Below, one piece after another: positions 1 through 3,495 of a stretch of 45,399 nt of DNA; positions within the stretch are counted from its first letter, which is position 1, and each line of letters begins with the position of its first letter. Below the pieces are notes generated by a model. The model was not told the origin of the DNA and ran no database searches. It was given only the letters and a program-made list of their open reading frames with translations. The position numbers were made by a program, and so were the translations under genes. Source of the DNA: ANME-2 cluster archaeon (GTDB taxonomy: Archaea; Halobacteriota; Methanosarcinia; Methanosarcinales; Methanocomedenaceae); assembly GCA_019429385.1 (NCBI GenBank), contig JAHYIS010000017.1:1-45399 (forward strand). Reading direction: 5' to 3'.

Positions 1-72
1 ATCTTTGAGATAATCTACCAATGATTCGAAGCTATTAATATTTTTTAAATCCGAAATTCCAGATGTTGACAT
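1..72 (-). CDS. Start of a gene cut by the window edge; possible DNA methyltransferase partner of the helicase
   Basis: An open frame starts with ATG at 72 and runs off the left edge. Only 24 codons are visible, beginning MSTSGISDLKNINSFESL and continuing into VDYLKD. The start lies 13 nt after the stop of the helicase gene, with a GAAGGGG stretch just upstream as a ribosome binding site, so the two are almost certainly co-transcribed. From memory, an N-terminus with a 'LVxYLRDEL' character is found on Eco57I-type restriction-methylase proteins, which often sit next to PLD/SNF2 helicases. That identification is an inference from very few residues. Confidence 0.45.
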   Translation of the reverse strand, partial: MSTSGISDLKNINSFESLVDYLKD

Positions 73-85
73 AAAACCCCTTCAA

Positions 86-3000
86 TTAAGATAATTCCAT
101 CCATGTTTTCAATAAAGCATTCACACCTATTGGTGCTTGTACAGATTTCAAATATGTATTTTTTATATGTTTGTCCATCTTCAATCTGATTTCTTTTAAT
201 GATTCGTGTGGGATTATTTGTTTCTTTGGCGTGTCAATGTCACATCGGATATGTTCAAGTATCTCAGCAGAATCCTCAATTATATTTTCAGAACCAATAT
301 TATAAAGATACCATTTTGTAAATCCTGCATCTTCAGTCCACTCATCAGTTGAAATATCTTTTGCGGGGAGACTATAACAGAAAAACACCCCTTTTGCATC
401 TGGTGATATGTGCTCCTTTCCACTGAACACCTTTAGGGGTAGATATTGTATTTTTGCTAAAAGCTCAGGATTGGTTTGAATTAATTCTTGATATTCTAAA
501 TGCATTTCTTCAAGAAATGTAGTACTGCCTTCATAATCTTGATTAAATTCATTTAAGGCTTCATAGTCATCATCTGGTGTGAGCAATTTTTTACCTTCAA
601 TACCAAATGTCTTTGAAATCCTGAGAGTCTTACTCGTAACTTTCTCGTACAAACTTAAAACTTCATTCAATTCATCGGGTGGTAGGAAGTTCCAATATTG
701 CACTTTTCCACGTATATCTGCATATTCAGGATGATCGTTTACGATTTTTTCTTCGATATCTGGATTAAGTCTTCGGTCCACACGACCAATCCTTTGCATT
801 AATCGTACAGGATTCCAGTGCAAATCATAGTTAATGAGCAATGTTGCATCTTGGAGATTCAACCCTTCAGCAAGTACGTCTGTTGAGATGAGAATTCTTG
901 TGTCTGTTTTCCCCATCTCTATTATTTCTTGACTACTCAATCCGTTATAATAAGGCGAGAAACAATTGATGATCTCCCCACGATCTCTTTTAGATGAACT
1001 ATCAACCTCATCAACCTGCTCAAATCCTCTGGATTTCAATTCCCTAAATAGATATTGAGCTGTCGTCATATATTCGGTAAAGATTATGACTTTGTTTTTC
1101 TTCAAAAGTGGATTTTCATTAAGGGTCTTTACCAAATTTTCTAATTTATCATCTTTACTCTGTTTAATCTCCAACAAATCTTTTATAAATACTGCCAGTT
1201 GGTCCATGTCTCGCAGGGTTTTATAAATAATTGTAGCAACATCAAACTCCTTATATGATAATGTTTCAACTTTTTGAAGTAATTCTTCGGGCAAATAATC
1301 TTCATCAGAATCTTCATCTTGAATTCGTCCCCTTTCTGTTTGATGTTGCTTAATGTGTTCGAGAATATCTTTATGCTGCCGTTCCCACCGAGTACATATT
1401 TCCTCATTATGAATACGTACAAATGCTAATAATTTAAGCAATAAATCCTCACAGGAAAATTCAAAAGCCTGTCTGGAACTTTCAAATCTTTTTAAAAGTA
1501 ATGTGCGAATCAATCCAACAACTTGCCTCTGCCTTCCTTCAGCCATCGGGTCAATATCTTCATCTTGACCAATGTAATGCCTCAAAGGATAGTAAATTAC
1601 CAAATCTAAAAGTGGTTCATCCTTGTTGAATGCTTCTTCCAAATGAGTCAACAATTTCCCATATGTCTTTTTCAAAGAATAATCAATGACAATCGGAGGT
1701 CTCCTTTCTGGGAACACTACATCTCTTCCTTCTGTTCTTCTTTGACTATCTTTAACATATGAACGACTTCTCTGGACTACAAGTGCATTAAATAAATCAT
1801 CTCCTGCCAATGTATCCTTTGCTTCATCAGCATCTATGGTCACATCAGAGCCGTCTACATTACCAATTAAAGTGTTTTGAAGTTCCTTTTCCAACTTCAT
1901 AAAATGCCCTTTAAGACTATGGATTCCTAATGGAGCTTCACCAAAATAATCCACGATCTCTCTTGAGAATAACTCTATTTGATGTTGAATATCTAAAAGA
2001 GAATTATTAATCGGTGTGGCAGTTAGAAGAAACACTTGCTTGTTATCACAAATTTCGAACATCTTTCGATATCTTTCAGTATTACGGTTTCTGAAATGGT
2101 GTGCCTCATCTATAATGATGACTTCTGCCTGTTCTTTAATACTTTCCAATACTTCCGGCCAGTCTATTTCAGAATTTGCACTTCTTGTCAAATCAGAATG
2201 GTTGATTATTCTAAATGGCAAAAAACCATTCAGAACTTTAGGCATGTAATTCTTTATTGTAAATTCCCAAACAGGTTTACGTGTTGCTTTTGGTACGATT
2301 AATACAACCCGTTTATTTTCAAGCATTAACAGGCGTTCAATCAACATCAAACCAATGAAAGTCTTACCAAGACCCACGCCATCACATAAAAACCCCCCAT
2401 TATAGCTAGATGCGATTTTCATTAAAGCATGATATCCATCTCTTTGATACTGATCAAGGATAGGGTACATCTTTGAAATATCCCTCTCCCATTCACTCTC
2501 GGTCAATTCATGTCCTTTGAAGTATTCGTAAAGTGATTTTGCATAGACTTCAAAAGGTAAAAATTCCTGTGTATGCCGTTTTATGGTTTTAAGAATTTCA
2601 GGTGTAACATCTTCTGCTTCATTCCAATGCTTCTCGAACCAATCTTGTAGAACTTGAACCTCTTGTTTTATTTGTACATTCAATTCAACATTTTGATTCA
2701 ATCCAGGTGACGTGAAATTACTTGAACCAACCAAAGCGGCGGGTCCAACAACTTCAAATTTTGAATGTGTAATGTATGCTTTTGCATGAAATTTCTTTTT
2801 TCTATATACTCTACACTCGATTTTTTGATTATTGATCCCATTTACAATTGCGGGTACTCCATTGAGAAAGTCGTTTTCCTCTTTTTCCCCTTCAATACTG
2901 TTGTCAAGTTTTGAATTTATTTCTAGAAGTCCTTCAGCAAAAGCCTGTTGAGTTCTTTTTGAAACTTCATCTCCCATCAATATTCTAATTTTTTCAAGAT

Positions 3001-3163
3001 TTTGCCATTTTCCATCTAAATTCAATAAAGAACCAATTTCAAAGTATCCGGTAGCAATGTCAAATTTCTTCGAGAGCTCACACCATTCAGCAAGATACTT
3101 TTCCACCTTCCATTCCGAATCACTATTATCTACAATGAATATATCAGATTGTTTATCTTTCAT
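86..3163 (-). CDS. PLD-like nuclease / SNF2-family helicase fusion protein, probable defence protein
   Basis: A protein of about 1025 aa. Residues about 30-180 form a phospholipase D-like domain with H126-x-K128 and the downstream GSSNF motif near 146-150. This is the HxK...GSxN pattern of PLD nucleases, but only one copy is seen. A superfamily 2 helicase follows: Walker A DGVGLGKT near 261-268, DEAH at about 352-355, and a C-terminal helicase domain with ISTDVLAEGLNLQ and the motif VI QRIGRVDR. Such fusions act on DNA and are common in restriction or phage-defence islands. I chose ATG 3163 over the upstream ATG at 3181 because GGAG lies 5 nt before it. The gene is AT-rich compared with queE and mch, which suggests acquisition. 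The next gene starts 13 nt downstream and is cut off. Helicase call strong; exact defence system unknown. Confidence 0.85.
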   Translation of the reverse strand: MKDKQSDIFIVDNSDSEWKVEKYLAEWCELSKKFDIATGYFEIGSLLNLDGKWQNLEKIRILMGDEVSKRTQQAFAEGLLEINSKLDNSIEGEKEENDFLNGVPAIVNGINNQKIECRVYRKKKFHAKAYITHSKFEVVGPAALVGSSNFTSPGLNQNVELNVQIKQEVQVLQDWFEKHWNEAEDVTPEILKTIKRHTQEFLPFEVYAKSLYEYFKGHELTESEWERDISKMYPILDQYQRDGYHALMKIASSYNGGFLCDGVGLGKTFIGLMLIERLLMLENKRVVLIVPKATRKPVWEFTIKNYMPKVLNGFLPFRIINHSDLTRSANSEIDWPEVLESIKEQAEVIIIDEAHHFRNRNTERYRKMFEICDNKQVFLLTATPINNSLLDIQHQIELFSREIVDYFGEAPLGIHSLKGHFMKLEKELQNTLIGNVDGSDVTIDADEAKDTLAGDDLFNALVVQRSRSYVKDSQRRTEGRDVVFPERRPPIVIDYSLKKTYGKLLTHLEEAFNKDEPLLDLVIYYPLRHYIGQDEDIDPMAEGRQRQVVGLIRTLLLKRFESSRQAFEFSCEDLLLKLLAFVRIHNEEICTRWERQHKDILEHIKQHQTERGRIQDEDSDEDYLPEELLQKVETLSYKEFDVATIIYKTLRDMDQLAVFIKDLLEIKQSKDDKLENLVKTLNENPLLKKNKVIIFTEYMTTAQYLFRELKSRGFEQVDEVDSSSKRDRGEIINCFSPYYNGLSSQEIIEMGKTDTRILISTDVLAEGLNLQDATLLINYDLHWNPVRLMQRIGRVDRRLNPDIEEKIVNDHPEYADIRGKVQYWNFLPPDELNEVLSLYEKVTSKTLRISKTFGIEGKKLLTPDDDYEALNEFNQDYEGSTTFLEEMHLEYQELIQTNPELLAKIQYLPLKVFSGKEHISPDAKGVFFCYSLPAKDISTDEWTEDAGFTKWYLYNIGSENIIEDSAEILEHIRCDIDTPKKQIIPHESLKEIRLKMDKHIKNTYLKSVQAPIGVNALLKTWMELS

Positions 3164-3246
3164 GTGAACTCCAGAACACACATTTTGTAAAATTCATTAA
3201 TTTCTGGATATTTATATCATTCGATTTTATAGAAGTTGCACAAAAG

Positions 3247-3495
3247 TCACAATATACCCCGCACGAAATGTAACGGGGCCTGCACATCATTAATGGTTTC
3301 AATCCCGTCAAGAGCAAGTTCCCAGTCACAGAAATCCTCTTCAACTTCGAAAGACCACCCTGATTCTTCAACTATCCTCTTAGTTTTACAATCCTCAAAA
3401 CTCATATTGTATTTCTCCCGCAACTTCTGATCCATTAACCTATATTCAGCAAGCTTCCTACGCAACTCGTCAGGTAATTTCACAGATACAGGCAT
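3247..3495 (-). CDS. Small antitoxin-like protein (MPVSVKLPDEL-type N-terminus)
   Basis: An 82-aa protein. Its first residues, MPVSVKLPDELRRKLAEY, look like the DNA-binding strand and first helix of ribbon-helix-helix antitoxins. The rest is acidic, with a DWELALDGIE segment typical of archaeal antitoxin-like proteins. I used the ATG at 3495 rather than a TTG two codons upstream; GTGA lies just before it. No toxin-like gene is seen beside it: the downstream neighbour is the helicase, and the upstream neighbour, queE, lies across a change in base composition. It is either an orphan antitoxin or the regulator of the defence operon that follows. Family assignment is moderate and function is inferred. 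Confidence 0.55.
   Translation of the reverse strand: MPVSVKLPDELRRKLAEYRLMDQKLREKYNMSFEDCKTKRIVEESGWSFEVEEDFCDWELALDGIETINDVQAPLHFVRGIL

Follow-up and report, generated by a model that had tools for sequence, protein, structure and literature searches.

A PLD-SNF2 protein and a truncated methyltransferase at an archaeal contig edge: a probable two-protein restriction-modification system

The window analysed here is the whole contig C17 (G000:C17, 1-45399) of an ANME-2 cluster archaeon, 45,399 nucleotides (nt) long, and its left end is an assembly edge. Three minus-strand genes lie at this end and are transcribed towards it: an 82-codon gene (3495-3247), a gene encoding a PLD (HKD) nuclease fused to an SNF2-type translocase (hereafter PLD-SNF2) and, 13 nt after the PLD-SNF2 stop, a truncated gene of which 24 codons remain before the contig ends (Table 1). 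An earlier note on this DNA had described both the fusion and the gene running out of the window, and the analysis bears out both descriptions. The latter two genes are the subject of this report, since together they probably form a restriction-modification system.

PLD-SNF2 comprises 1025 amino acids (aa) from the ATG at 3163, with a possible alternative GTG start at 3181. Pfam detects PLDc_2 (2.6e-10), SNF2-rel_dom (4.4e-15) and Helicase_C (1.1e-18) in this order (residue numbers are 1 higher than those counted from the ATG, as the query began one codon earlier). The catalytic motifs are intact: HxK, GSSN, Walker A, DEAH and TATP are invariant in 14/14 aligned members of the PLD-SNF2 clade, and QRIGR reads QRVGR in a single one of them. 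The Asp of the classical HxK(x)4D motif is replaced by His in 13 of these 14 proteins and by Tyr in the remaining one. Furthermore, the PLD domain weakly matches a solved PLD restriction enzyme (2c1l, E 0.0016). The best PADLOC model, a single-profile match over residues 19-993, is C3a139 'HKD+Snf2' (E 1e-59), and the helicase part also scores to the DrmD, BrxHI/II and DpdE models. The closest full-length relative in 99 related genomes is found in G043 (69% identical), and G317 holds a fragment with 73% identity over 412 residues. The structure model of PLD-SNF2 is poor (pLDDT 56.5) and no conclusions were drawn from it.

In G043, a partner of 1099 aa starts 15 nt after PLD-SNF2. The 24 codons in the window agree with the start of this partner at 12 of 23 residues, a score reached by 0/2000 shuffles. 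A search of the window's own genome with residues 1-492 of the G043 partner returned a single match, located at the end of contig C33, where the encoded piece is 73% identical over query residues 173-492 and 63% identical over 174-1099. The orientations of the C33 piece and of the start in the window are compatible with a single gene of which about 150 codons fall unseen between the contigs. Judged from these alignments, the rest of the truncated gene very probably lies at the end of C33.

Both the G043 partner and the C33 piece carry Type_ISP_C (Pfam; 5.1e-98 and 2.6e-83, respectively) and an N6-methylase domain (N6_Mtase 1.2e-9 in G043), while Eco57I scores above the cut-off on the C33 piece and slightly below it on the G043 partner. 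The C33 piece shows the motifs DPATGTGTF and NPPY. The earlier note had likened the start of the truncated protein to Eco57I-type enzymes, had suspected an acquired restriction-like pair and had advised looking for a methyltransferase to the left; the domain content of the G043 partner and of the probable continuation, which marks them as N6-adenine methyltransferases of Type ISP specificity, supports this reading. In model searches, both partners hit IIG/ISP models, and DrmMI gives no match at E 0.01. The solved structures matched by the G043 partner are three chains, LlaBIII, LlaGI (methylase-specificity parts only) and 7lo5, with the matched regions spanning residues 833-1459 of LlaBIII and 668-1352 of LlaGI.

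The methylases of the window's genome and of G043 share 421/569 residues (74%) in the coupler and methylase parts, 53/184 (29%) in the specificity region and 119/169 (70%) thereafter, and the specificity regions of G043 and G219 share 121/189. By this comparison, the specificity region is exchanged between the methylase of the window's genome and that of G043. In restriction-modification enzymes that change their DNA specificity, replacement confined to the target-recognition part is expected; the exchange is therefore counted as a restriction-modification signature in favour of such a function.

Table 1. Features of the pair, its probable continuation and the cyanobacterial parallels.
Feature	Position	Strand	Basis or remark
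PLD (HKD) nuclease-SNF2 translocase fusion, first gene of the pair	86..3163	-	ORF calls; Pfam; PADLOC C3a139; motifs
PLD nuclease domain PLDc_2, residues 53-181, HxK (H at 2786-2788) and GSSN	2624..3010	-	Pfam, motifs
SNF2-related ATPase lobe 1, residues 240-394, Walker A GVGLGKT, DEAH, TATP	1985..2449	-	Pfam, motifs
Helicase C-terminal lobe, residues 675-798, QRIGR	773..1144	-	Pfam, motifs
Partner methyltransferase, first 24 codons (start of the ~190-residue N-domain), cut at contig end	1..72	-	ORF calls; match to G043 partner start; gene order
Probable continuation of the truncated partner	G000:C33:23798-26629 (L016:16299-19130)	-	943-codon open frame cut by contig end
Cyanobacterial plasmid loci	L172:3988-11685, L176:3973-11661; also L171, L173, L179		methylase and 'helicase-related protein'

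In relatives, the partner methylase begins with an N-terminal domain of about 190 residues, termed the N-domain here. The genome sets searched are samples, and in that of 387 genomes from one bacterial phylum (the phylum of G454) the cut-offs were E <= 1e-140 for the PLD-SNF2 clade and E <= 1e-5 for the N-domain. In this sample, the N-domain occurs in 8 genomes and the PLD-SNF2 clade in 8, and these are the identical 8 genomes, with both genes on the same strand and within about 2.1 kb of each other. Likewise, 13 of the fetched clade loci (L009, L010, L028-L038) have an intact PLD-SNF2 gene as well as sequence downstream of it, and in all 13 a methylase with an N-domain follows on the same strand. 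The methylase follows directly in six loci (L010, L028-L031, L034), at a distance of about 0.8 kb in L037, and after one to three other genes in the remaining six (L009, L032, L033, L035, L036, L038), where the intervening genes are NYN, three small open reading frames (ORFs), a DUF1016/YhcG nuclease, Schlafen AlbA_2, ORF6N, DUF3800 and MqsA/HTH-like genes. Not all of these methylases are whole: that of L009 is cut short, that of L038 is spread over two frames, and that of L029 reaches the contig end or stops close to it. Two loci were left out of this count: L039, where PLD-SNF2 breaks off beside an ORF that we take to be a transposase, and L040, which ends at the contig end. In the archaeal phylum of the window, the PLD-SNF2 clade was found in 3/392 genomes (G000, G238, G317) and the N-domain in 2/383 (G000, G219); in G219, the N-domain is immediately preceded by the last 45 PLD-SNF2 profile positions, where the contig ends.

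Viral contigs, examined in overlapping sets, show the same pairing. Of 91 viral PLD-SNF2 relatives, 80 were kept; the N-domain lies at most 0.3 kb downstream in 8/8 clade members (49-55% identical) and in 0/72 of the other PLD-SNF2 loci (at most 28% identical). The 42 viral loci with the methylase core divide into 7 with the N-domain, 29 with a PD-(D/E)XK nuclease N-terminus and 6 with neither. PLD-SNF2 sequence lies upstream in 7/7 N-domain loci, six of which are on contigs that also belong to the 8/8 above (in L202 it is a remnant of 157 residues only), as against 0/29 PD-(D/E)XK loci within the flanks available, several of which are short (e.g. L181, L189, L208). From these counts, the N-domain and the built-in nuclease look like alternatives, with PLD-SNF2 going with the N-domain. 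Plasmids offer a further comparison: across 40 listed plasmid records the methylase-specificity core has 34-47% identity, these relatives align to the G043-type methylase only from residue 176 or later, and the first 200 residues, i.e. the N-domain, have no match among 72,556 plasmid records at E 1e-3.

Taken together, the pair is best explained as a two-protein, ATP-dependent restriction-modification system whose motor-nuclease is recruited through a docking domain, a reading that we regard as probable. The N6-adenine methyltransferase with its Type ISP specificity domain would bind a recognition sequence and methylate the host's own copies of it. The N-domain, placed where single-chain relatives keep their PD-(D/E)XK nuclease, would dock PLD-SNF2. 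At an unmodified site, the methylase would hand over to the PLD-SNF2 held by the N-domain, so that on foreign DNA the SNF2 motor would start and translocate and the PLD domain would cut, presumably in defence against phages. Translocation followed by cutting is proposed by analogy: in Type ISP enzymes, DNA is cleaved after ATP-driven translocation, according to the accessible parts of PMC7049714 and PMC4666363.

The genomic setting is that of an AT-rich island. GC content is 34.9% for PLD-SNF2 and 34.6% for the C33 partner piece; the remainder of the window has 46.0% and the C33 stretch, over its first 15 kb, 48.8%, a difference in composition to which the earlier note had already drawn attention. 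For that note, housekeeping genes to the left, conserved in order across relatives, would have spoken against its reading, and this was not what was found. C33 has nnrE and moaC on its plus strand, and after them come an AbiE-like pair and then the methylase; seen from the pair, two small ORFs (108 and 109 aa, no Pfam match) and the AbiE-like pair precede moaC and nnrE. In the window, the gene adjoining the island is queE. In eight relatives looked at, moaC lies directly beside queE in two (G009, G011) and the contig ends at queE in two others (G005, G006). Because moaC and queE are adjacent in G009 and G011 and the GC content of the pair is low (about 35% as opposed to 46-49%), the pair appears to lie between moaC and queE, provided that C33 and C17 join as the alignments suggest.

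The AbiE-like pair between moaC and the restriction pair (L016:13240-14788 on G000:C33; AbiEii 6e-30, AbiEi below the cut-off) is an observation in its own right, in view of which the moaC-queE site may collect defence genes. In G043, the methylase is directly followed by a CD-NTase-like gene (L010:16880-17770), which scores 347.8 bits to the NCBIfam anti-phage nucleotidyltransferase model 'DS2_2' (cut-off 350) and 2.1e-123 to the PADLOC Cyclase model.

The 82-codon gene is real. The earlier note had called it antitoxin-like, a label backed by no family match: the 82-aa product has none in PADLOC or NCBIfam, and its best Pfam hit stays below the cut-off (E 0.016). By sequence, the gene resembles a truncated and altered member of a family of 103-105 aa, which is present in 20 of the 99 related genomes, the window's own included. 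Only G000 and G043 of these 20 gave a PLD-SNF2 hit at E 1e-60, leaving 18 with none, and the G043 copy is on a different contig from the pair. In G005 (L226), a contig other than the one ending at queE carries nnrE, moaC, a full-length copy of the small gene and a queE fragment of 37 residues in this order, and the pair is not present in the 3.2 kb covered. The gene is accordingly rejected as part of the system.

Several findings weigh against a joint system. The partner in the window's genome is divided between two contigs, and the gap of about 150 codons leaves most of its N-domain unseen; in addition, queE has other neighbours in 4/8 relatives (G002, G003, G008, G010). The own-phylum genome lists for PLD-SNF2 and for the N-domain differ: in G238, PLD-SNF2 breaks off at about residue 752 and the methylase is a 29-residue scrap on another contig, while in G317, PLD-SNF2 runs into the contig end and no methylase match is found in that 73%-complete genome. 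Broken copies include the methylases of L009 and L038, the PLD-SNF2 of L039 and the remnant in L202. Furthermore, the distances of PLD-SNF2 and of the N-domain are uncorrelated overall (r 0.15, with 720/5000 permutations as high); the correlation becomes 0.64 after dropping L033 and L035, an omission chosen by the analyst. The N-domain model is fair (pLDDT 82, pTM 0.82) and has no convincing structural match, with none from Foldseek at E <= 0.001. Finally, an (E/D)xK motif is found at one spot in 9/13 N-domain members, after a strand at residues 73-79, where a catalytic role is possible. These points leave room for two proteins that act separately; the pairing stands nonetheless.

Under such a separate action, the two enzymes would merely travel together: the methylase would be Type IIG-like, with an unusual nuclease as its N-domain, and PLD-SNF2 would be a nuclease of its own, for example of Type IV. 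Besides the (E/D)xK motif and the genes standing between the two in 6/13 loci, this is favoured by the order of helices and strands in the N-domain model, which by eye resembles a PD-(D/E)XK core. A degenerate PD-(D/E)XK nuclease was a candidate for the N-domain, prompted by the element order and the partial motif, but the comparisons lent it no support: that between the profiles of N-domains and true PD-(D/E)XK N-termini, made on relatives, gave no similarity (E 0.65), and the best Z of a second structural search was 4.8, i.e. at background level. The list from that search contains no clear nuclease, which speaks neither for nor against. Moreover, (E/D)xK is missing from 4/13 members, unlike the W, R, P and L positions, which do not vary, and the N-domain and the PLD-SNF2 clade were never found apart in the 387 genomes. 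Two independent enzymes are judged unlikely.

It is a little harder still to see the pair as a methylation-guided, non-cleaving or abortive system of BREX or DISARM kind, in which the methylase would serve only to mark self and PLD-SNF2 would work in a different way. DISARM, BREX, BREX-related Type-2 and PbeA/CxC were considered, given the scores of the helicase part to DrmD, BrxHI/II and DpdE, the co-occurrence of PLD-SNF2 helicases and N6-methylases in BREX-related Type-2 systems (PMC12839542, accessible part) and the likening of the domains of a Lactococcus pair on plasmid pLd8 to those of Class I DISARM, in a different organisation (PMC6098607, accessible part). No fitting core genes were seen beside the pair. 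The earlier note had advised searching the genes to the left for DISARM- and BREX-type domains. Judged by ORF size, over 9 kb on C17 and 19 kb on C33, no ORF fits the drmA/drmB/drmC core, and none is as large as a BREX core gene. For BREX-related Type-2, the flanks of the window's own locus hold no ORF of DUF499 size, the two small ORFs being the ones described above. Against this alternative also stand the PLD His and Lys, identical in 14/14, and the preference of both partners for IIG/ISP over DrmMI models, although the methylases of L033 and L035 score weakly to DrmMI. That the restriction locus has decayed and is now inactive in this genome is very unlikely: the adjoining small gene is shortened and relatives hold broken copies, but PLD-SNF2 is an intact ORF with its motifs and the 943-codon partner piece is open.

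The preferred explanation, a motor-nuclease recruited by a docking domain, may extend beyond the Type ISP-like methylases. In L035, an N-domain (34% identical over residues 1-188) precedes an Eco57I/TaqI_C methylase, and in L033 an N-domain (30% over 6-170) precedes a PglX-like methylase (PADLOC PglX 2.3e-128); both lie next to PLD-SNF2 genes of the same clade. The balance tips slightly towards the N-domain as a general plug, i.e. a docking domain placed before at least three types of methylase and specificity part (Type ISP, TaqI_C, PglX-like), each of which would recruit one conserved PLD-SNF2 motor-nuclease in trans instead of a built-in nuclease, with a similar split apparently evolved in cyanobacteria with a different N-terminal domain.

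The cyanobacterial case concerns plasmids of Nostoc and Synechocystis, where, in 5/5 fetched loci, a helicase gene lies downstream of a 'type ISP' methylase whose N-terminus is of another type. Two of these helicases were scanned with Pfam and yielded SNF2, Helicase_C and PLDc_2 below the cut-off; one has a PbeA match over its HKD region. The helicase is split between frames in L173, and a transposase gene lies between methylase and helicase in L179. The likeness to the archaeal pair lies in the methylase core and in an N-terminus without a PD-(D/E)XK signature, whereas the N-domain is not detectably related and the helicase is only distantly similar. The N-domain, the PD-(D/E)XK and the cyanobacterial N-termini are in fact not detectably related to one another by profile comparison. 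Three proteobacterial plasmid PD-(D/E)XK enzymes have no such helicase gene within flanks of 3.7-4.5 kb. Overall, 9/45 plasmid records were fetched; the comparison of N-termini does not include L177, whose N-terminus is short as annotated. Among archaea, 4/4 more distant PLD-SNF2 loci examined adjoin, or lie at most three genes from, a large methylase, which matches Eco57I in three of them. The fourth is a second, distant PLD-SNF2 gene in the window's own genome (L011:3-4731 on G000:C7), with a methylase-like gene 1 nt away that is cut by the contig end and matches N6_Mtase below the cut-off only.

If the proposed reading is true, a one-piece restriction enzyme becomes a two-piece, ATP-driven one by the exchange of a single N-terminal domain, and the N-domain is a clear handle for finding and testing such split systems. 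Some of the genes that now carry a stand-alone 'Type IIG' or 'type ISP' annotation may then be incomplete without a PLD-SNF2 partner.

Fusions of PLD (HKD) nucleases to SF2/SNF2 motors are known from SauUSI, PbeA and BREX-related Type-2 systems (PMC7913695, PMC10853773, PMC12839542; accessible parts of each). BREX-related Type-2 and PbeA/CxC systems share with the window's pair the HKD nuclease fused to an SNF2/SF2 motor and, in some, a methylase, but they carry DUF499/DUF3780 or an ABC ATPase with DndE, and no such set is seen beside the pair. A PLD nuclease and an SF2 ATPase are likewise common to the pair, to SauUSI, where they form one chain with an SRA domain that reads methylated DNA, and to CglI/NgoAVII, where PLD and B3 are separate from the ATPase (PMC7913695, accessible part).

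Such a split had been put forward as early as 2018, for one distant pair on a Lactococcus plasmid. In the accessible text of PMC6098607, orf33-orf35 of pLd8 from Lactococcus lactis form a putative type IIG system made up of a methylase that lacks a restriction domain and, next to it, a PLD-SNF2 protein, which its authors propose as the source of the restriction activity. By description, the arrangement is alike, with a PLD-SNF2 gene next to an N6-adenine methylase, though the N-domain of the archaeal partner is mostly unseen; the pLd8 methylase has a TaqI_C recognition domain (pfam12950) where the C33 piece and the G043 partner have Type_ISP_C, and no docking domain is described in that text. 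The PLD-SNF2 proteins of Lactococcus plasmids, pLd8's own possibly among them, are about 27% identical to that of the window. In the open-licence literature searched, no description was found of the Type ISP version, of the docking domain or of its exclusion of a built-in nuclease, and the accessible parts of PMC12707154, PMC12458937 and PMC12715929 do not mention such a split pair with an N-domain.

Type ISP enzymes such as LlaGI and LlaBIII, a much-studied single-chain class, combine an adenine methylase and a Type ISP specificity domain with an SF2 motor and a nuclease. The proposed system has the methylase with this specificity domain as well as an SF2 helicase-like motor, though in a separate protein; it differs in consisting of two genes instead of a single chain, in an SNF2-type motor that carries a PLD nuclease (PLDc_2) instead of an Mrr-family one (PMC4666363, accessible part) and in the additional N-domain. 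Single-chain Type IIG and 'type ISP' enzymes of plasmids and viruses share the methylase-specificity core but keep their nuclease in cis and lack the PLD-SNF2 neighbour, as seen in the viral flanks. The N-terminally fused PD-(D/E)XK nuclease of Type IIG enzymes finds no counterpart in the N-domain, which, judged on relatives, has neither profile similarity to it nor an invariant (E/D)xK. For all these differences in architecture, the closer kin of the pair are the Type ISP and Type IIG enzymes.

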